This document shows, piece by piece, positions 337 through 58,600 of a stretch of 64,000 nucleotides of DNA. The stretch comes from Odontesthes bonariensis. Its lineage: Eukaryota; Chordata; Actinopteri; Atheriniformes; Atherinopsidae. The notes under the pieces were generated by a model. The model had not been told where the DNA came from and searched no databases. It saw only the letters and a program-made list of their open reading frames with translations. Numbering within the stretch: the first letter of the stretch is position 1; each line of letters opens with the position of its first letter. The translations under genes and the position numbers were made by a program. The stretch is from the NCBI RefSeq assembly GCF_027942865.1, contig NC_134526.1:5769284-5833283 (forward strand), in the 5' to 3' direction.

Positions 337-3300
337 GCTGGTGCAGCTCAGGAACCCGTGGGGACGCTTCTCCTGGAACGGCGCCTGGGCGGACGACTGG
401 CCCCACTGGCCCCTGCTGCTGAAGAGGGAGCTGTGCACGCAGCGGGCCGAGGACGGCCTGTTCTGGATGGACTTCTGGGACTTTATCAGGTGCACCAAGA
501 GCCCACAGCTCACGGTTCCAGGCAGAACACCAGCTAAAGAAAGTCTGAAAACAACAAGTTTCATTTAATGTCTGAGCCGTTAGAAAGCTCTGAGTCTGCA
601 TTTCCATCACTGAAACACACAGTTTGAGCTCTTTGTCTTCATGAAATAAGACAAACTAACCAGATTTATTCAGGTTTGTTGTGAAAACAAACCTGAATAA
701 ATCTAAATGTCTCAGGGATTTAAAAATTAAAAAGATCAGAAACATTTGAAAAGATTTAAAAAGTCCCATTAATAAAACAGAAGCATGCTTACAGAGTGTC
801 TTTTCTCTCCAGGTACTTCGACTCGGTGGATATCTGTAAGATCCATTCGGACTGGCAGGAGGTTCGTGTTCCGGGCGCTTTCCCCCGAGGAGCCAACGTG
901 CCGCTGATGGTGGTGTCCATGACGGTGCTGGAGAGGACGGCCGTGGAGCTGGCTCTGTTCCAGCAGGGCAGCAGGTGGGGCACCAACTCTTCTTCTGAGG
1001 AGGATCACTTCGCCTTACTGTGGTGAAGAAGCAGCTCTGCATCTGTTGTTGTCATGACAACAGCTTTGTTTTCCTGGAGGATTCATATCAGTTCTGACCC
1101 GGACCTCATTTCTTTGTATATTTGCAGGAAACCAGGAAATCGGTGCAAAATTCAAACGTGAACATAAACCCAGAATCTGAGTCAGAACCAGAGTTAGTTC
1201 AGCTCTGAGCAGCTTTAAAGTGAATATCTGCAGATGTTTCCATGGTAACAGCTGCAGAGATTCACTGAAACATGTTCCAACATGAACATAAACCCAGAAT
1301 CTGAGGCAGAACCAGAGTTAGTTCAGCTCTGAGCAGCTTCAAGGTGAATATCTGCAGATGTTTCCATGGTAACAGCTGCAGAGATTCACTGAAACATGTT
1401 CCAACATGAACCTAAACCCAGAATCTGAGGCAGAACCAGAGTTAGTTCAGTTCTGAGCAGCTTCAAGGTGAATATCTGCAGATGTTTCCATGGTAACAGC
1501 TGCAGAGATTCACTGAAACATGTTCCAACATGAACATAAGCCCAGAATCTGAGGCAGAACCAGAGTTAGTTCAGTTCTGAGCAGCTTCAAGGTGAATATC
1601 TGCAGATGTTTCCATGGTAACAGCTGCAGAGATTCACTGAAACATGTTCCAACATGAACATAAACCCAGAATCTGAGTCAGAACCAGAGTTAGTTCAGTT
1701 CTGAGCAGCTTCAAGGTGAATATCTGCAGATGTTTCCATGGTAACAGCTGCAGAGATTCACTGAAACATGTTCCAACATGAACATAAGCCCAGAATCTGA
1801 GGCAGAACCAGAGTTAGTTCAGTTCTGAGCAGCTTCAAGGTGAATATCTGCAGATGTTTCCATGGTAACAGCTGCAGAGATTCACTGAAACATGTTCCAA
1901 CATGAACATAAACCCAGAATCTGAGGCAGAACCAGAGTTGTGTGTGTGTTTTATTTTTGTTTTTTTTTTCTTTTCATTTAGTGTTTTTTTTTTGTGTTGT
2001 TTCTGTTTTATTTTGTGTTTTTTGTTTTATTTCATGTTTTTTTGTGTTTCTTTTGTTTTCTTTTGTGTTTTTCTGTTTTATTTGGTGGCTTTGGGTCAGA
2101 TTTCCTCCTGTTCATCTGCTGTAGATAGTTCTTTAGGCCTGACACTTCCTCTTCTGTCCTCCACTTGTCCAGTTTTGTTTTTACTTCTTCTTCTCTTTAT
2201 TTATTACCTGCTTTAAAGCACTTTGGCACACCGTAAGGATTGTCTGTAAAGGGCTGTAGAAATAAAGTACATTTACATTTGCATTGATCAGTTTTGCTGT
2301 CTTTGTTCTGTTCTTCAGGCGTTGGGACACAGCAGAGAGCCACCTGCTGGACCTGTGTGTGCTGGTGTTTCGGGCCGCCTACGACAGCTCCGGCACTCTG
2401 ACGCTCGGCCGGCTGCTGGCCCACAGCCGCCGCTCGGTCAGGAGATTCGTGGGCTGCGACATCATGCTGGAACCGGGCGAATACGCCGTGCTCTGCTGCG
2501 CCTTCAACCACTGGCACTCCTCTGTCACAGAGGGCTCAGGTAAGAAGGCCAAAACCCTGATTTTAAACCTTTTTATGAGCAGGATACTCACAAATATGCT
2601 GATAACCATGAGATCTGAAGCCTCAGAAAGCATCAAAGTTTGGCTGCTTGACTGATGAACCTGACTGGAGTTGTGTTTTCAGCGAGCAGCGGCAGAGCCG
2701 AGGCGCCCGGCTACATGCTGGCCGTCTACAGCTCCAGGCTGCTGATGGTGGAGCAGGTGACGGCCTCCAACACCACCATCGCCGACGCCGTCACCCAGCT
2801 GGCAGAAACCAAAGGAGAGCGGCACGAGGTGATGCTGCCTTCACTTAGCAGATCATAAAAAACGACAAAACGCTTGCTCCATAGTCGATGAGCTCCCGCT
2901 TCTGAGAGTGTTTTAAAGTAGAGTTTCTGGAGTGCCATGAGAGTCCAAATCCATGAATAAATGCTCCAACGAATCCAAAGAAAGGGCCGACTCTGAGAAG
3001 AATTTATTATTATTTTATTATTATTATATTATATTATATTATTATATTATTTATTTAACCATTTATCATTATTATTATTATTATATTTATTTAACCATTT
3101 ATTATTATTATATTAGTTATTTAACCATTTATCATTATTATTAATTTAACCATTCATTATTATTTTTATTATATTATTTATTTAACCATTTATTATTATT
3201 ATATTATATAACAATTTATTATTATTATATTATTTATTTAATCATTTATCGTTATGATATCATTTATTTAACCATTTATCATTGTTATTATTATTAAATT

Positions 3301-7206: not shown

Positions 7207-8542
7207 AACATTTCAGAAACATTTCAGAAACATCTCAAAAACATCTCAGAAACATTTCAGAAACATTTCAGAAACATCTCAAAAACATCTCAGAAACATT
7301 TCAGAAACATTTCAGAAACATCTCAAAAACATCTCAGAAACATTTCAGAAACATTTCAGAAACATCTCAGAAACATTTCAGAAACATTTCAGAAACATTT
7401 CAGAAACATCTCAGAAACATTTCAGAAACATCTCAAAAACATCTCAGAAACATTTCAGAAACATTTCAGAAACATTTCAGAAACATCTCAGAAACATCTC
7501 AGAAACATCTCAGAAACATCTCAGAAACATCTCAGAAACATCTCAGAAACATCTCAGAAACATTTCAGAAACATCTCAGAAACATCTCAGAAACATTTCA
7601 GAAACATCTCAGAAACATCTCAGAAACATCTCAAAAACATCTCAGAAACATTTCAGAAACATCTCAGAAACATCTCAGAAACATTTCAGAAACATCTCAG
7701 AAACATTTCAGAAACATCTCAGAAACATTTCAGAAACATCTCAGAAACATCTCAGAAACATTTCAGAAACATCTCAGAAACATCTCAGAAACATCTCAGA
7801 AACATTTCAGAAACATCTCAGAAACATCTCAGAAACATCTCAGAAACATCTCAGAAACATCTCAGAAACATCTCAGAAACATTTCAGAAACATCTCAGAA
7901 ACATCTCAAAAACATCTCAGAAACATCTCAGAAACATCTCAAAAACATCTCAGAAACATCTCAGAAACATCTCAAAAACATCTCAGAAACATCTCAGAAA
8001 CATTTCAGAAACATCTCAAAAACATCTCAAAAACATCTCAGAAACATCTCAAAAACATCTCAGAAACATCTCAGAAACATCTCAGAAACATTTCAGAAAC
8101 ATCTCAGAAACATCTCAAAAACATCTCAGAAACATCTCAGAAACATCTCAGAAACATCTCAGAAACATCTCAGAAACATCTCAGAAACATCTCAGAAACA
8201 TCTCAGAAACATCTCAGAAACACCTCAGAAACATCTCAGAAACATCTCAAAAACATCTCAGAAACATCTCAGAAACATCTCAGAAACATCTCAGAAACAT
8301 CTCAAAAACATCTCAGAAACATTTCAGAAACATTTCAGAAACATCTCAAAAACATCTCAGAAACATTTCAGAAACATTTCAGAAACATCTCAGAAACATT
8401 TCAGAAACATCTCAGAAACATTTCAGAAACATCTCAGAAACATCTCAGAAACATCTCAGAAACATTTCAGAAACATCTCAGAAACATCTCAGAAACATCT
8501 CAGAAACATCTCAGAAACATCTCAGAAACATCTCAGAAACAT
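7207..8542. repeat. 11-bp minisatellite, about 121 copies, downstream of capn15
   Basis: Uninterrupted array of AAACATCTCAG / AAACATTTCAG / AAACATCTCAA, all 11 bp. Because 11 x 3 = 33 bp, three units encode eleven residues and no unit creates a stop in one plus-strand frame. This makes a long open frame (7080-8597) that is a by-product of the array. It begins about 340 bp after the capn15 stop and could lie in the 3' UTR: no AATAAA was noticed before the one near 8873. Confidence 0.97.
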
Positions 8543-22300: not shown

Positions 22301-28829
<6,529 letters not shown>

Positions 28830-46670: not shown

Positions 46671-49600
46671 ATGTGTGTGCTCAGGTGTGTGCTCAGGTGT
46701 GTGCGTGCGCTGCTGTGCGTGACGCACGGTGTGTGTCTGAACCTGCTGGACGACGCTGTGATTTTCAGCGGACCGACAGGAAGTCTGTTTGGGTTTTCTG
46801 TCGACTTCCACACCGTCAACAACCAGTAAGTTCCCCGGAGGATCTAAACTCAAACTCTTAACCTTTTAGCACCCACTGTTGTTGATATGCAACAAGCTTT
46901 TTATTTATTTACATTATTTATTTACATTGTATTTTTATTTATATTTTTATTTATATTACATTGTTTGATTTTTTTAAATTTACATACATTATTTACATTC
47001 ATGTGTAATATGTTTTTACATTACATTTTATGTGCCGACAGTTGTCACAGCAGTTATTTTCTTGGCTCAGTGAATTGCACTCTGCTTTGCGGTGGTCTGT
47101 TCTAGTTGGTTCTGGTCTCGTTTGGTGTGGTCTGCTTTGTCCACCTTTCACAGCGGTAATGGGAGGTCAGCTCTCCAAACTGTATTATTACAAAATTAAT
47201 CAGGAAAGCCCACAGTTGGAAATGTGCAACATTGCCTAAATGATCAAAAATAGCCCAATTCCAAAAATATTGGTTTATTCCCCCCAAAAAAGATGCAAGA
47301 AGAGCCAAAATGATTTTTGTTCAATGATTATTCATATGCTTGGGTACTACAAGGTTAATGCAGTCGTGGAAAAAGGGGAGCAGGTCCTCTGTCAGGTCTC
47401 AGGTTTTATGGATCAGGTTTACGATAAAAAACACCTGGTCCTAAACAGGTGTTAAAACGAGGTAAATCCAACCTCATTTTAACACCTGGTGAAGACCTGA
47501 TGATTTTTTTTTATTATGTTCTGATGTGTACACCAAAGAAAGGGTGTTTTTGAGGAAGGTCAGTTTGGACCTTCTTCTTCACATGATTGTAGCACCGGGA
47601 ACAGGTGAGTTACCCCAGGTAAAGTCCTCCGGTGGTGTTCTGACCTTCTGTCTCTGCAGGTCTTACGTTGTGATTGGAGCTCCCAAAGCCAACACCAGCC
47701 AACCAGGAGTGCTGGAGGGAGGGGGCGTGTTCATGTGCCCCTGGTCACCTGGAGGAACCTGTGACATCATTGACTTTGACCTGAAAGGTGAGATTTTATT
47801 TAGTCTGCTCTAACTAGGGTTGCCAACTCCCTGAAAAATAAATAAGGGACCCCTCATTAGAAGGGCCGGCCGAAACCGATTGCCTTCACCCTTCCTAGCC
47901 GGGTGAATTTTTTGGCCCCTTTTTTTGTGAGTGAAACAATTTTTTAACTATTTGACATGAACACCTGGAAAACTAATAATTATCCAGCAATTCACTTTAA
48001 TATAAAATAAATGAATAAAATAAGTATCTTTCTTAAAGGAGAAGTTCGTTTTTTTTAAACCTGGACCTTATTTTTGGCATAAAATCTGTTCATCTACTCA
48101 CAGATAACAGTTTGGTGAAAGTCGGCGTCCTTCGGAAGATATTTAGATCACTGGAGATCGGCATATATCCATATAACAGAGAGAACAGGGCAGAGACAAT
48201 ACAGCCTCTAAATAAGGCATTATCTGTCTTTATTTCACAGATACTTTACGACCAATGAATGAATGAACGCGTACTATTGCACTGTTAGCCCAGAGCTGCT
48301 GTGTTGTTGTTATTTTGTAGCAGAGTGGTGCAAAAAGTCTACATTAAGTGGTTTCAGAGAGTTACATGGTTCTGTAAAAGCATTCATAAAACAAAACAGC
48401 CATGTACTGATATTAGAAAACGTACTTTGTAGTTGAGTAAGATTTGACCATGAGTATTAATACTTTAACTCACGTACTGGAGTTGAGTACTTTGTCCACC
48501 ACTGCTTAAAGCAGCGTCTGCTTACTGTCACCCATGCTGCTGCCTTGTTGTCTTCCGCTATCTTCTCCGCGAGCAACAGTAACTCCTCGACCAATGAGCT
48601 GCAGCGTATTCTCGTGTGTGAATATGCTGTTAGCTCATTGGTCACCGAGCAGGACCGGGCCAGGGAACAAGTTTACCGTACATTTTCATATAAAGCCCCG
48701 TTATTCATTTCCATTGGCATGATACTGACTATTTTTATACTCACAGTAATACGGGACAAAGGGATTCCCTTTTCAGCTCAATACGGCACAGGTGCTGTTG
48801 TTTCTAAGTACGGGACGATTCCGTTTTTCAAGGGACGGTTGGCAACCCTAGCTCCAACCATCACCTGTTTCATTTTCACACCTGTCACACCTGTCATACT
48901 GTTGTCCCTTTGCTGTGTTGCAGGTGATCAGGTCCACAACAGTTCGGGTCTGCTGTTTCACTCCTTTAAGAGTCATCAGTGGTTTGGAGCTTCTGTCCGC
49001 TCAGTCAGCAGCACACACCTACTGGTAAGAACACACCTACTGATAAGCACACACCTACTGGTAAGAACACACCTACTGGTAAGCACACACCTACTGGTAA
49101 GAACACACCTACTGGTAAGCACACACCTACTGGTAAGAACACACCTACTGGTAAGCACACACCTACTGGTAAGCACACACCTACTGGTAAGAACACACCT
49201 ACTGATAAGCACACACCTACTGGTAAGAACACACCTACTGGTAAGCACACACCTACTGGTAAGAACACACCTACTGGTAAGCACACACCTACTGGTAAGC
49301 ACACACCTACTGGTAAGCACACACCTACTGGTAAGCACACACCTACTGATAAGCACACACCTACTGGTAAGCACACACCTACTGGTAAGCACACACCTAC
49401 TGATAAGCACACACCTACTGGTAAGCACACACCTACTGGTAAGCCCACACCTACTGGTAAGAACACACCTACTGGTAAGCACACACCTACTGGTAAGAAC
49501 ACACCTACTGGTAAGAACACACCTACTGATAAGCACACACCTACTGGTAAGCACACACCTACTGGTAAGCACACACCTACTGATAAGCACACACCTACTG

Positions 49601-52600
49601 GTAAGCCCACACCTACTGGTAAGAACACACCTACTGGTAAGCCCACACCTACTGGTAAGAACACACCTACTGGTAAGAACACACCTACTGGTAAGCACAC
49701 ACCTACTGGTAAGCCCACACCTACTGGTAAGCCCACACCTACTGGTAAGCACACACCTACTGGTAAGCCCACACCTACTGGTAAGCACACACCTACTGGT
49801 AAGAACACACCTATTGGTAAGCACACACCTACTGGTAAGCACACACCTACTGGTAAGCACACACCTACTGGTAAGCCCACACCTACTGGTAAGCCCACAC
49901 CTACTGGTAAGCACACACCTACTGGTAAGCCCACACCTACTGGTAAGCCCACACCTACTGGTAAGAACACACCTACTGGTAAGAACACACCTACTGGTAA
50001 GAACACACCTACTGGTAAGCACACACCTACTGGTAAGCACACACCTACTGGTAAGAACACACCTACTGGTAAGAACACACCTACTGGTAAGCACACATGT
50101 TTTTGCTGTTCATGAGAGAAAGAAATGACTCAGTGTGAGTATCTCTACCTGACAGGCATGTGCGCCCCTGTTCCACTGGAACGTTCAAAAAGGAGGGGCG
50201 GAGTCAGAGAAAACACCTGTGGGGAACTGCCTTCTACTGGACCACAAGACAGGAAGCTCCACCCCATTCGCCCCCTGCAGACAAAACATGATGGAGCACC
50301 AATACAAGTCCATGAAATACAGTGAGACAAACAGACACAGATGAACAGATATGTGGACACTTTCTGAAAGTCTAACTTCTGTTTGTCGTTGCTCAGTTAA
50401 CGACCAGCGCTACTGTGAGGTTGGCTTCAGCGTTGACATCACCAAGGTGAGCTGGTGGTGGGCGGAGTTTCTCTTGCGCAACATCCCAATGTAACCCCAT
50501 AATGCTCACACCAGATCACTGTGTGTTGTAGGAGGGCCGACTGGTGCTCGGAGCTCCAGGAAGTTTCTACTTCCAGGGTGAGGGAAAGAGACTCCTGCTG
50601 GTCACCAACTGTAACTACACCAGACTAAAGATTACACCAGAGAGAAATTTACTGTTTTGTTTCGTTGGGAAGAATTTCTCGATGCACCGCTGGACAATCA
50701 AGACTGTAGTTAATCCACCATGCATAACCAGTGTTTACCAGTTTAAACCAGATGTAGCGAGTTACCAGTCAAAGATATTGTGAAGCAATCAGACCAGTCA
50801 TTGTGCTGACATCATCACTGCCATTCGGATTTTAGGCCAGGTCATCTCAGTGCATGCCAGTGACATCATCAACAGTGGGAGTACCAATGAACCAATCCAG
50901 TCTGTGACAGGTGTCCAACAATCAACTGAGGAAAGAAATTATGATGTTTACCGAGGTGAGTGGAACCATCCTGTCGTGTTCAAAGCAAACGTGTTTGCTA
51001 ACATGCAGAAATCTCATTCACTGGTCCTAAAACCAAACATTCATCTGACATTCATCACAGTCAATCTGCCTTCATCACTTACTGTTGTTTCATGTTCGTT
51101 TCTGAAATCAGTCGACCAGGTTCTGTATGTGTCTGTGTGTCAGGTTACTCTGTGGCCAGTGGTCTGCTGACGGGAGACTCTACACCAGGTCAGATCTGAT
51201 CTAATCTAATCTAATCTAATCTAATCTAATCTAATCTAATCTAATCTAATGTCTAGTCTGATCTATTATTTAGTCTCGTCTAGTCTAATCTAATCTAATC
51301 TAATCTAATCTAATGTCTAGTCTGATCTATTATTTAGTCTCGTCTAGTCTAATCTAATCTAATCTAATCTAATCTAATCTATTCTAATCTAATCTAATCT
51401 AATCTAATCTAATGTCTAGTCTGATCTATTATTTAGTCTCGTCTAGTCTAATCTAATCTAACCTAATCTAACCTAATCTAATCTAATCTAATCTAATCTA
51501 ATCTAATCTAATCTAATCTAATCTAAAGTAATCTAATCTAATCTAATCTAATCTAAACTAACCTAACCTAATCTAATCTAATCTAATCTAATCTAATCTA
51601 ATGTCTAGTCTGATCTATTATTTAGTCTCGTCTAGTCTAATCTAATCTAATCTAATCTAAACTAATCTAATCTAATCTAAAGTAATCTAATCTAATCTAA
51701 TCTAATCTAATCTAAACTAACCTAACCTAATCTAATCTAATCTAATCTAATCTAATGTCTAGTCTGATCTATTATTTAGTCTTGTCTCGTCTAGTCTGAT
51801 CTAATCTAGATTGTGTAGTCTAGTTAAGTCTCATCTCATCTCTTCTGACCCCATCCAATCCGATCTAACATGTTTGTGTTTATGTGTCAGATTATCTTGT
51901 CGGTGTTCCAAATGACAGAAACACAGCAGGAACGGTGAGTTTTTTTTATTGCTTTGATGGTAATCTACTGGAGTCTACCAGCTTCTACTTTAACCCATTG
52001 AGGCCGGGAAAGCGTTGCGTCATTCTACCTTTAAGGCCTGGAAAGCGTACACGTCTTTTTTCATGTATAAGGTTGTTTTGCACCAATTATTGACCTCTGC
52101 GCCAATTAAATGCATTATAATAGACACGTGAGAGTGTCGTCATGTTCCTCGTGTCATTGTTTTGAAGTTAAGTTACATCGGAAAAAAAAAAAAAAAGTTA
52201 AGTTTCATCGAACAAGCATGGAGGACTTTCAGTCCGCACACCAGGGGTGAAAGTCGGTTCACCTGCAGATGCCACACCGTTGCAGGCATTTAATCATATT
52301 TTTACTGAGGAGCTTTGGTCGCATCTCGTTTCCGAGACGAATAGATAGAGTGACCAGGTACTTCAGACTCCAGCTCGAGCAAAGATGGCAAGGTGGTCAC
52401 ACATAACATGAAAACGTTTATTGAAATGTGTATGGACTCCTTGTGCTGCCAGTACGAAGAGATTACTGGCGATAAAATAAATAGATAAATAAATAATTTA
52501 AATATAAAATTTAATTTAATTTTATTACTGTTTTCTAATTGAAAATAGCGCTGTTGCTGCACTTTACTTTTTATTTTATTTTATTACTGTTTTCTAATTG

Positions 52601-55600
52601 AAAATAGTGCTGTTCCTGCACTTTACTTCTTACATTTTCTATTTTCGTGAAGGTGTATGTAAATAAACTCAATTTCCAAAGAAAGCCACAGGTGTAAGCT
52701 CTCAAATACTTTTTGAATTTTGTTTCTATCTGCTACAGAGGCTGAGAAATCAATCATTTAGTAATTGCTGAATTTCCAGAAAAACTTCAGGTTTTAGGAG
52801 GTCTTTCTGAAATCGCCCATAGGTTTTACAGGCATTCTTTTCCAGGCGTCTTAGGCCTAAATGGGTTAAGGATAATCTCAGTTTATCTGCACCACTCTGG
52901 CTGATTCTGTTGGACTCTGTGGATAAAATGAGTTAATTTCAAAGTATCCGTGAATCATGTTTAACGTGAGAAGTTCAGACGATGAATTATCCTACGACTC
53001 TACTGTCCATCTTTATTACCAGGTGAAGATCTATGACGGCAAAAGCATCGAATATCTGAGAGTTCAGCACACCTTCCTGGGAGCGCAGGTAAAACCTACC
53101 TTCTGAGGAAACAACATCCTTACAGCTTGGGTTTTAACCGACTGAACCTGAGGTGTGTCTGTCTCCTGCAGGTGGCGTCATACTTTGGACACAGTGTGGC
53201 TGTGGGTGACATCAACAGTGACGGGTGAGAACAGAGTTCAGTCACTTTCAGACATCAGAACAGACTCTGCCTCCTCTGTAAAAGTAGAACCTGTTTCTCT
53301 TTGCGGTTCTGCAGTCTGGACGACGTCTTGATCGGAGCTCCTCTCTTCATGGACAGAGTGATGGAGCAGCTGCAGGAGAGAGGACAGGTCTGAGAATCCC
53401 GTCTTTGTCTTTGCTCGGTGTTAGACACCCAATAAAAAAACACCTCCATGGGTGTTTTTATCCAGTCAGACTGAAGAATTTGTTGTTGGCTTTGGTGGCA
53501 GGGGGTGACTCAAAAACAAAAATTCATCCCTTCTCAGTGTGTTAGATGCATCACTCACTGTTAGGGATGGGAATCGAAAACCGGTTCCCAGTGTTTCAAT
53601 TCCTTGGAATCGTTTGGCAATTTTATCATTAACGAATGACGTCACCGCGCACGTTGTGTGGCGAGTCCAGTGCAGCCAGCAGTCAACAGTAAACATGGCG
53701 CCCAAGCGGAACAAACGCTCGAAAGTTTGGTTACACATCCCTAAAAAAGACGACAACAGGGCAACTTGCAAAGTGAATATTTCACCAAAGGGAGGAAATA
53801 CTACCAACATGCAATAACTATGAATGAATGTTGCGTTTTCCATCCGCTCCGGACTAACGTTGGTGAATCTGAACTCAGCAACGTTAGCAACGTTAGCATG
53901 TCCTCGGCTAACACTGCAGGTAACTAACTAACTAACTCTGCCTATCATGTTAGCACCATTTGCCTCATTGTAAAAGCTCCTGTTAGTAACGGTTAAGGTT
54001 AAATGAATGCCTTCTCAGGCATTACATTTAGATGAAATCATGAAAGACAGAGCCTGACTGGCTCAGAGCCAGAGGCTGGTGGTACTACCCCCAGTTCACG
54101 TCTACCTCCAGCTTCTCCTTTCACCAGAGCAGGAAGAGTTAAATTACCCAGGCCAGGATAGACCAATGTGGACCTCACCGTTGTTGGGTTTGTAAGGTCA
54201 TGACTCGTGTTACTTCTAAGCTAAACAAAGTTGATGCTAATCAACCGGTTTGTTGTCCTTATTCTCCAAATGAGAATCGATAAAGAACCGAATCGTTAAG
54301 CAGAATCGAAAATGGAATTGGAATAGTAAAAATCTTATCAATTCCCATCCCTACTCACTGTATTCCTTCATTTGTTCAGGTGCTTTTGTACATGCAGAGA
54401 AGACACGCCCCCTTCACTTCCAAGCCTGACCAATCACTGATTGGCCCCTCCCTGTATGGGCGGTTTGGCTCCGCCCTCGCTGTGCTGGGTGACCTGGACA
54501 TGGACGGTTATCAAGGTGACCAGCTCAAAAGCCTTTCCGCAGAAAATGTTGTTTGGAGCAGTTAGGAAGATGTCTGTTAGTCTACTTTATGGAGCTATGT
54601 GCGCTGCTCCATTCACGGCTTTACAAGAACTCAGAGAAAAGTGGGAGAGAGAACTGTCTGTCACAATCAATGCTGTTGACTGGGAAAGTATATGGACTTG
54701 TGCTAAATTAATCTCAGTTTGTAACCGTTTCAAATCGATACAGATTAAGATTTTGCATAGGAAGCATATATCCCCTAATCACAGACATAAGTTCAACCCT
54801 AGTTTGTCTCCAATGTGTCTAAAATGTAAAACAGAAATTGGTAATCTAACTCACTGTCTTTGGTTCTGCCATAAGCTGCAGAAATATTGGTCTAATGTCT
54901 TTACAGAAATTGAAAAGATTCTGGGATTAAAGCTGGTGATGGACCCACTGTCTCTTATATCAGGCCTTCCTGCTAAAGGTGTGAGGTTAATAAATTAAAG
55001 ACTGTTTTGTATTCTTACATTTGCAGCGAGGAAGAATATTTTATTGCAGTGGATTAGCAATAAGGAACCAAATGTTAAAGGATGGCATAAAGGGCTGTTT
55101 GAGTTGGTGCCTCTGGAATACTTGACTTGCGTATCACATTCAAACTCCAAACAATTTTATGAGGTTTGGAAACCTTATTTGAATGACTTGGACCCCAATG
55201 TATCTTCCATTCTTCTACAGGGATTCTCTGGAAGGTCATAATAACGGGACACATTGTTGTGCACCCCTTCTTTTTTTCTTTTATTTACCCATTTATGTAC
55301 TTCTTTTTTACTGTCTTTATCGATATGGATACTGATTGTGTGTAACTGAGTCATTGTGTGTTGAGTGTTGTGTTGGAGTTTTGTGTTTGTTTATGTTGAA
55401 AAAGGAAAATTAATAAACACATTAAGAAAAAAAAAAAAAAGCCTTTCCGCTAAAAGATATCCACCTGAACATCATTAACCGTGACTGTCTCTGTGCAGAT
55501 GTTGCTGTCGGGGCCCCCTGGTCGGGGGACAGTGGGAGGGGCCAGGTGTTTATCTACCTGGGTAAAAGCGACGGTCTGTCAGCCACACCCTCGCAGGTGA

Positions 55601-58600
55601 TTGACAGCCCGTTGTCTGGAAGGACAGCGTTTGGTTTCACTCTGCGTTCGGGGGCTGACATAGATTCAAACGGATACCCAGGTACATTCAGGAGATACGC
55701 AGCAGATCGATCGATAAGGACAAACAGATAATCAATTCTCACCTGCTTTCTGTGTGTCTTGTAGATCTGCTGGTTGGAGCATGGGCAGCGGACCGAGCAT
55801 TTGTCTACAGGTGAGACGTCATGTGACCAACTGACAACAGAGTTAACCGTTTGAATCTGGAGGACGATTCTTTCTCACTTATTTCATCTCATTACCGAAG
55901 ACGTGTAACCATTCTGTTATCTGAAGAAGTCACAGGAAAACAATATCTGACAGTTTCTTCTCCGGAACCTCAACACAGAACTGTAACTCCAGTCAACTTT
56001 GTGCTCAGGTCTCAGGCTGTGATCCGACCCAAAGTCTCCGTCTCTCTGCTGCCGGACTTCCTGAATCCAGACGTCAAACTGTGTCATAGAGGAACCACCC
56101 CCGTGTCCTGGTAACTAACCGCTGAAATGTTCACACGTGCCACTGATTTCAAACAGGGTATCTGGGGTTTCTCAGATATCTCAGGTTCTGGTTCAAGTTG
56201 TGGTGGTTAGTCGCCTCACAGCAAGAGGGTTACTGGTTCGAATCCCGGCTGGAGCCTTTCTGTGTGGAGTTGGCATGTTCCCCCCGGGTATGGATGGGTT
56301 CTCTCTGGGTACTCTGGCTTCCTGCTACCCTCCAAAACAATTTAAATTTACCAGAGAAGTGAGTGTGCATTGTTTTTTGTCCCTGTGTGGCCTTATGATG
56401 GATTGGAAACCCACATCTCACCCAATGGCAGCTGGGATAGGCTCCAGCATCCCCTCCGACCCTGAATTGCATGAAGCAGGTATAGCAAATTAATGGATGG
56501 ATGGTTCCACTCCAGTTCAACTTTAGAGCTTTTGGGGTGGCAGTTGGCTCAGCATCTCACATAAGGAGAGACGCCACCTTCTGAGATGAGGTTGCTGAAG
56601 ACTCTGTTCAAGCTTTGGTTGTTTAGTTTCATTGAGTTCTGGCTCTGATGCTGCTGTCCAAACACATGGCTGCAAAGCAGACCTTAGCTTCTTTAAAAGG
56701 TACAGTCGGTTCTGTTCCTTCTTGTGGACAGCCTCAACATTGTATTTCCAGTTCAGTCTGTTGTCCAGGTGAACACCAAGCTTTCTGTAGTACTCCACTA
56801 CCTCCATCGCTTCACCCAAGAAAGACATTTTTAGCCTTGTTCCCACTATGCAGTCCGGTACGGGTCGGTACGGAACGGTACGGGTCGGGTCTCTTTGGGG
56901 TCAGCTTGCGTTCCCACTGTACAAAGACGACCCTCAGAGGTGGGCGGAGTGCGTGCCGAAGCGTAAATAGCAAATAACATCCATAATTTGGAACCACCTC
57001 CGAGCTTCTTCAGCTTAATGCCACACTGGCTCGCGGCCCGGTTGAAACCACTCTCTGCCATTTCTGCGGCAATCAGCTGGAAAACTTTTTGGTTTGGCAC
57101 AGCGCCATCGAGCTCCCGCTGCACAGCCTCCTCACCAACACCGGAGAGTAGAGCCTGGAACCGGTCCTGTGTGCTCGGTACCCCAAGCAGAAGGGTTACA
57201 GACATGGTAACGGTACGGATCGGTACGCTTTCGTGATAATGGAAACACTGAAATAAGCGAACCGTTCCATCCCGACCCGTACCGGACTGCATAGTGGAAA
57301 CACGCCATATGTTTCCATCCTTTAACACTGAGCAGTATTTAGCAACCCCGGCATAAACAGGGCTTCTAAAGGCTGAGGATGATTCATAAGCACCAGTCGG
57401 CTTCATTTAATACTGGGAATTCACTTAGGAAGTCGACCAGAAACAAGAGAAAGGTCCATTGGGAGTTTACCAGGTAAAAAGGTCAGAAAGCATCGAAGCA
57501 CTTTGAGCTAGTCCTCAGTTGGAACTCAGAGAAAAAGAAAAAGATGGTCGCCTCCCTTTGGAATTTATTTGGGCACGTCCGACAGGGAGGAGGCCCCACT
57601 GGAGGGATTATATATCCCATCTGGCCTGGCAACACCTCGGGTTCCCCCAGCAGGAGCTGGAGAGTGTTGCTGGAGAGGGGGATGTCTGAGTTTCCCTCCT
57701 GGACCTGTTGCATACACGACCCGACCTCGGATTAGCGGAATCCAATAGATGGAAGATTGCTTCTTTATTCTGGTGTTTTCTGGTGTTTTAGAGGTTCCAA
57801 CCATCAGGATGAGCACTGATGCAAATGAATTGACGCCAGTAAATTTGAAGATGCTGTCTGTGTCTCTTCAGTTTTGTCATCCAGATGTGCGTCCAGGTGG
57901 CTGGTCACAGAATACCACAGCAGACAGGTAATGTCCTCAGGTGAACTGGTCCTCAGATGATGTGGACTTCACAATATTTCACAGTAATTTGGAATCAGAT
58001 TTCTGTTTGCGTTCTGATTGGGTCCTGCAGCACTGAGGGTGGAGCTAGAGCTGGACAGGATGAAGCAGCCAATGGCACGGCGAACCCTGCTGCTGTCGAC
58101 CAGTCAGCCGCAAGAGATAATAAATCTGGTTGTTGAGAGGGAGGTGGGCGTGGCCTGTGTCAATCACACAGCCTACCTGAGGGTGAGTAACAGATGAGAA
58201 CAGGTGAGTCACACCTGACTCTGTGTAAACGTCACACTGTCGGACGTTCTTTCTTATGGGGACAACGGGTGTAATGCACGCCGTTACAGGTCATGTCTTG
58301 TAGTCTGTGGTTGTCACGGCGATGGCTAAAGTCTCCAGGAACTTAATGTCGCGTGATCTGAAGCCATGATTACACAACCGTGTGCATGTGTGTGTGTGCA
58401 GTCTGAAGAAGAAGTTCGGGATAAGCTGAGTCCGATCTTCATCACTGCTAACATCAACCTCCTCAACACTACCCAGCATGCATTGCTGCATGGTCAGACA
58501 CACGCGGCTGCCCAGGTTAGGTGAACACTCACGTATGCCCATCTCTGTACAGTGTGTCATTCTCCATCAGTCAGAACTGTACTCTGACCCTCACCTGAAA

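Follow-up and report, generated by a model that had tools for sequence, protein, structure and literature searches.

How does a splicing machinery deal with an exon whose 5′ splice site has been copied dozens of times in a row? The question is raised by itga2b, the gene for integrin alpha-IIb, of the fish Odontesthes bonariensis (NCBI RefSeq assembly GCF_027942865.1). The gene lies in a stretch of 64,000 nucleotides of contig NC_134526.1 (C26:5769284-5833283 in the contig numbering used here), referred to below as the window; positions given without a contig name are counted from its first letter. Within this window, an 18-bp tandem array of 60.4 copies (49010..50097, plus strand), detected both by Tandem Repeats Finder (TRF) and by a pattern count, spans the boundary between exon 3 and intron 3. 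The array is probably a largely inert minisatellite lying across the donor of a compact intron, with the first donor being used and some leakage to the next few.

The array comprises 60 consecutive CTA[C/T]TG|[G/A]TAAG junctions, every spacing being exactly 18 bp, from the first donor base at 49025 to the last at 50087. The donor dinucleotide is GT at 54 junctions and AT at six (nos. 1, 10, 18, 21, 28, and 31, counted from 0), so that the numbers proposed by an earlier, sequence-only reading of the window are confirmed by the junction count. The same reading had placed the junctions at 49024 + 18n; the spacing was right, but 49024 is the last exon base, and the donors stand at 49025 + 18n. The sequence CTACTGGTAAG occurs 53 times in the window versus 0.01 times expected from shuffling. 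Across the 59 full units, variation is confined to four of the 18 positions, namely 1 (G/A), 6 (C/A), 7 (A/C), and 16 (C/T, once). Two of them fall within the six positions of the donor hexamer and two within the remaining 12 (Fisher p = 0.57, a weak test with 18 positions), and the donor G itself is among the four, so the donor is not visibly protected. The units differ pairwise by 0.053 per site on average, and the array is thus either young or homogenised; no indel is present in its 60 units. No higher-order repeats were detected: 41% of shuffles contain a repeated word of unit types as long as the longest one seen (6). CCC units do cluster late (p about 0.01), and AT units early (p 0.058). 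The site obtained by collapsing the array bears an 8-bp direct repeat, 18 bp apart, which fits slippage.

The identity of the gene, the exon 3 junction, and its phase, all proposed from the letters alone, are supported by a hand-built model and by alignment with alpha-IIb. The model covers exons 1-15 encoding the beta-propeller (46671..55810, plus strand) with GT-AG borders, and with exon 3 spliced at its first donor, it yields 470 aa without a stop codon, including FG-GAP repeats (PF01839). Compared with integrin alphas of solved structure, this propeller is best matched by alpha-IIb (398 bits for residues 30-470, versus 376 for alpha-V and 360 for alpha-5); thigh and calf pieces farther downstream, which were joined by hand and whose borders were not modelled, give 160 versus 122 versus 98 bits. 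Judging by this sequence, the gene that carries the array is apparently intact. Exon 3 (48924..49024, plus strand) is 101 nt long and ends in phase 0 with CTACTG, the final 15 bases belonging to a repeat unit and the protein aligning to integrin alpha-IIb; it is flanked by an intron of 1136 nt upstream and, when measured from the first donor, by one of 1131 nt downstream. Exon 4 (50156..50321, plus strand; ACAPLFHW...), defined by the exon model and protein alignment, follows the phase-0 acceptor CCTGACAG. The exon 3/4 join from the first donor aligns with VIVACAPWQHW of alpha-IIb, and thus this donor would yield a normal protein. With every further unit, six residues would be inserted at the point foreseen by the sequence-only reading, that is, directly before ACAPLFHW within the FG-GAP propeller. 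The predicted residues V-S/R-T/P-H-L-L are mostly correct, except that AT units encode I instead of V, giving [VI][SR][TP]HLL. From the last GT donor to the acceptor, the intron tail (50087..50155, plus strand) measures 69 nt, near the size of the minimal introns of the gene. Since five of the 13 other introns in the model are also short (75-90 nt), the ancestral intron 3 was probably compact.

Donor strength was assessed with a weight matrix and by U1 duplex energy. The GT donors of the array score 9.29-9.37, and among the 15 modelled itga2b donors that of exon 3 ranks sixth by the matrix and ninth by U1 duplex energy (-8.0). Donor-like sites scoring at least 9.0 number 82 on the plus strand of the window; 53 lie inside the array, and the densest stretch of equal length elsewhere contains three. 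The 15 bases upstream and six downstream of the donors are nearly uniform (nine variants over 60 sites), and hence the first donor would be marked mainly by its position and by the upstream exon sequence. In the predicted fold, it is modestly less paired than most of the others (0.46 versus about 0.6). Strong RNA structure was rejected for the first 291 nt of the array, which fold more weakly than every one of 200 shuffled versions (z +4.0).

The reading frame is kept throughout. The 60 units contain no stop in phase 0, their length of 18 bp is divisible by three, and an open frame is kept at every one of the 54 GT donors, in line with the earlier claim that every donor is in phase 0. Such frame-keeping is unremarkable because four of the six frames through the unit are open, and about 78% of random 18-bp units starting with GTAAG are open in phase 0 as well; besides, only a length divisible by three, a chance of 1 in 3, is needed.

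Searches of the fish's own genome covered the 945-Mb assembly of 187 contigs. The exact two-unit pattern gave 35 matches in the whole assembly, all in the itga2b array, and TGGTAAG at 18-bp spacing likewise revealed no other array, all 47 forward matches being those of itga2b. The exon 3/4 join, used as a protein query, matched the itga2b locus and one more integrin, and a second search yielded four paralogue loci. The corresponding boundary is readable at three of these, each time as a phase-0 intron (102, 478, and 544 nt), with the donors GTG|GTGGGT, CTG|GTAAGA, and CTG|GTAAGA; at the fourth locus, on contig C3, the upstream exon was not found. TRF detected no long array at the four loci (about 3.1 kb each), just one dinucleotide run and two three-copy 21-bp runs. 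Since CTG|GTAAGA occurs in the same phase at two paralogue loci that have no array, the identical first donor of itga2b (GTAAGA, 49025..49030, plus strand) is probably old and presumably ancestral, and the array is not common to these paralogues. When relatives of the array were sought in IMG/VR, 15 stretches were returned, each with one 16-mer match and no tandem copy, which is read as chance.

The same genome does, however, contain a second minisatellite at the donor of an exon, in a gene with I-set and FN3 domains on contig C6 (C6:41905398-41906555, or 1899-3056 of locus L036), for which TRF gives an 18-bp unit and 64.1 copies. The exon, 251 nt long and encoding the end of the I-set and the start of the FN3 domain, ends at C6:41905405 in ...CTGGGAG|GTAAGG, followed by approximately 64 copies of GTAAGGGGCCGCTGGGAG. 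When splicing runs from the first donor (first base C6:41905406) to the next exon (from C6:41906637), the FN3 domain is completed; the intron is then 1231 nt long, as against 93 nt when counted from the last donor. The two arrays are thus alike in the 18-bp unit, in starting at the donor of an exon, and in the short intron left after the last donor. Unlike that of itga2b, the C6 array has lost GT in 12 units; its remaining donors are 48 GAG|GTAAG and four GAG|GTAAA, and the four GTAAA units are 19 bp long owing to one extra base (a single insertion type) that breaks the frame. As a result, only five of the 52 C6 donors with GT are in frame and open, four of them among the 48 with GTAAG, and none lies beyond the first 90 nt. 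Since most of this array is out of frame, a donor array can persist without a continuous frame. The distal C6 donors can hardly carry a needed product, to judge from their frames, and the loss of frame is as would be expected if only the first few donors were used.

Other donor-like arrays were looked for in a survey in which forward plus reverse matches were set against a backwards control. For AGGTAAG, the counts were 242+181 versus 8+12 at period 18, 38+16 versus 8+21 at period 17, 20+43 versus 52+17 at period 19, and 102+281 versus 38+26 at period 15; at period 18, TGGTAAG gave 47+5 versus 2+4 and AGGTGAG 234+58 versus 110+1. The excess over the control was not used as evidence. From the matches listed in this survey, those for AGGTAAG-18, AGGTGAG-18, and AGGTAAG-15 being the first places only, 21 places were fetched (22 loci, L036-L057, L047 being extra flank of L036), and the C6 array is the sole second exon-donor array among them. 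L037, L040, L043, L048, L052, and L056 were rejected as donor arrays because they resemble coding repeats within a dispersed element. By eye, this element has an open reading frame (ORF) with an expanded KVSETG-like tandem repeat, and it explains a part of the period-18 AGGTAAG matches. No exon was seen in the flanks read for L039 and for the 19-bp array L051, and the filter gave no tandem array with the motif for L046, L049, L050, L053, L054, L055, and L057. L038, L042, L044, and L045 were likewise dismissed: they lie beside exons (read by eye), and no donor is amplified there. The arrays of L038, L042, and L045 (C1:11958029, C3:834597, and C3:2629877) are pyrimidine-rich on the exon strand and directly upstream of an acceptor, again with exons read by eye; Pfam assigns a WW domain to the L042 exon. 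These cases suggest that 3′ splice sites, too, are reached by minisatellites in the genome of this fish.

The following course of events would account for the itga2b locus. The minisatellite probably arose over the 5′ splice site of a compact intron and then grew as its units were duplicated, an origin inferred from the near-identity of the units and from the small size of the intron when measured from the last donor. The donor would have been multiplied as a passenger, and U1 could in principle pair with any of the 54 GT copies. As the 101-nt exon sits between introns of 1136 and 1131 nt, exon definition would pick the donor nearest to the upstream acceptor, 49025, and the normal protein would be made. 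Minor leakage to the next usable donors would add 12, 18, or 24 residues; such leakage would be tolerated without being selected for, given a unit whose 18 bp are divisible by three and free of in-frame stops. Use of the first donor is judged likelier because an insertion would hit the propeller of an intact-looking gene and because loss of frame is tolerated in the C6 array. In minigenes built for exon definition (365-nt introns), the upstream member of identical donor pairs is used exclusively, according to the portion of the study available (PMC9225289, Carranza et al. 2022). The same portion reports that, for near-equal human donor pairs, the upstream site is favoured with long introns and the downstream one if the downstream intron is shorter than 250 nt (PMC9225289). 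It also counts for a passive origin that the long introns 8 and 13 of itga2b carry repeats of their own. Of the three functions considered by the sequence-only reading (graded splicing, a U1 sink, or a neutral expansion), neutrality fits best with the unprotected donor G, the frame loss on C6, and the upstream-donor minigenes; a role as a sink or an enhancer is less likely.

Geometry, however, changes along the array. With the first eight usable donors, the exon would stay within 250 nt, and with the last 11 of the 54, the intron would be shorter than 250 nt; the 35 in the middle belong to neither group. For the first donor, both flanking introns are long (long-long), so that 49025 should be used with a short tail of leakage, whereas for the last donor the arrangement is long-short and the prediction is the opposite. 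Several observations weigh against predominant use of the first donor or against the neutral origin proposed above. The 69-nt intron from the last donor is of the size at which intron definition favours the downstream site, and, when no strength filter is applied, about 60% of human events favour the downstream donor, as does the majority within all four intron classes, according to Carranza et al. (PMC9225289). The complete absence of indels from 60 itga2b units, as opposed to the four 19-bp units on C6, could hint at frame constraint, and equal use of all donors would leave just one normal transcript in 54. As for slippage, the 8-bp direct repeat at the collapsed site may be a mere by-product of the fractional copy number, and no direct repeat of this type was found at the C6 array.

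For these reasons, other explanations have to be weighed. It is unlikely that intron definition takes the 3′-most donors, adding up to 354 extra propeller residues to most transcripts, or that a mixture arises from both array ends. Such use would agree with the open frame of the entire array, with a last-donor intron comparable to the 75-90-nt introns of the gene, and with the preference for downstream donors before short introns indicated in the text seen (PMC9225289); yet the exon would reach about 1.0-1.16 kb, the upstream intron is long (1136 nt), and 294-354 residues of [VI][SR][TP]HLL would break a conserved propeller. Quite unlikely, in our opinion, is a ruler read from two ends, in which exon definition would select the first donors and intron definition the last, so that the normal integrin would be made along with forms bearing hundreds of extra residues. 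If this were true, array length and splicing-factor levels would set the isoform proportions, and the C6 gene would offer a parallel in which the use of distal donors causes frameshift and decay, array length acting as an expression rheostat. It is very unlikely that the array is a selected graded device for isoforms differing by n x 6 residues, although the 54 GT donors are all in frame and of near-equal strength and the 60 units lack indels: insertions land in the propeller, the donor G belongs to the small set of positions that vary, an open frame is to be expected by chance, and frame is broken in the C6 array.

It is likewise doubtful that the array serves as an intronic element whose U1 sites and CA-rich hnRNP L-type motifs strengthen the first donor or suppress premature polyadenylation. 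This idea gains from the concentration of ACACACC in the array (49 of the 50 copies on the whole plus strand) and from the low structure of its first 291 nt mentioned above. CA-rich RNA is bound by hnRNP L (PMC4947485), and a downstream consensus donor increases complexes with two U1 particles and SRSF1 recruitment as well as the splicing of one substrate (PMC8724738), as far as the excerpts of these two papers go. Against it, the array bears no sign of constraint, and the paralogue loci share the intron without the array. Finally, near-identical 18-bp units are easily miscounted, but it is highly improbable that the copy number is an assembly error, given that 1.1 kb is short for long reads, that the assembly looks chromosome-scale (187 contigs; C26 has 34.0 Mb), and that the unit variants are interspersed and do not resemble a clean duplication. 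The inert minisatellite with predominant use of the first donor therefore remains the preferred explanation.

Repeats of other kinds are also found in the gene and in the window. An ATCTA tandem array (51194-51756) begins a few bases past the itga2b exon 8 donor (51189), making this a second intron inflated beside its 5′ splice site. Intron 13 holds an insert (54516-55498) that by eye is retroelement-like (ORF, poly(A)) and lies between 14-bp direct repeats AAAAGCCTTTCCGC; the frame 54441-54998 has no Pfam match, and without the insert the intron would measure about 73 nt. The stretch 51990-52869 in intron 9, bounded by the 10-bp inverted repeats TTAACCCATT, resembles a miniature inverted-repeat transposable element. 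Exon 1 contains a 12-bp in-frame tandem repeat (46673-46704) in the presumed signal-peptide region. Other large minisatellites in the window occupy 7207-8542 (11-bp unit, 121 copies) and 24462-25860 (55-bp unit, 25 copies), and tandem repeats make up about 14% of the window.

The significance of the locus is that exon and intron definition predict opposite choices among identical donors. In itga2b, 54 near-identical donors belong to a single exon, acceptor, and reading frame, and in each 18-nt step the exon gains what the intron loses, from 101/1131 nt at one end to 1163/69 nt at the other. Junction counts by position in ordinary RNA-seq would directly measure the rule of donor choice, which makes the locus a natural experiment, with the C6 gene as a frame-broken replicate in the same genome. 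More generally, minisatellites can overrun splice sites in compact-intron genomes with the coding sequence not visibly disabled.

No comparable donor array elsewhere, in fish or in itga2b, was evident among the papers listed by searches of the open-licence literature. The CA repeat of eNOS, on an account attributed to Hui (2003), is said to act together with hnRNP L on the splicing of a nearby donor, the repeat itself holding no donors. Competing donors 11 nt apart are described for DOK7 intron 4 in the portion of the report available (PMC5585400). There, as in itga2b, nearby donors compete for one acceptor, but DOK7 has two sites and not an array. The itga2b array crosses the 3′ boundary of an exon, its units carry donors of usable strength, and the unit is open and a multiple of three; these are features of the kind of minisatellite represented by IFI6 (6-16, G1P3). 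In that gene, Turri, Cuin and Porter (1995) reportedly described a minisatellite at an exon end giving in-frame insertions, with a 12-bp unit in about 26 copies, only the first units of which are said to be used. Two downstream repeat units of human IFI6 (6-16) serve as donor sites, resulting in three mRNA species, according to the passage seen in a later paper (PMC4526556, citing Turri et al. 1995). Both loci thus have minisatellite units carrying splice donors; the use of several units has been reported for IFI6, whereas in itga2b the unit is 18 bp, the copies number 60, the site is an integrin propeller, and the donors are candidates. The itga2b array is apparently a larger member of the rare kind known from IFI6, with a second example in the same genome.

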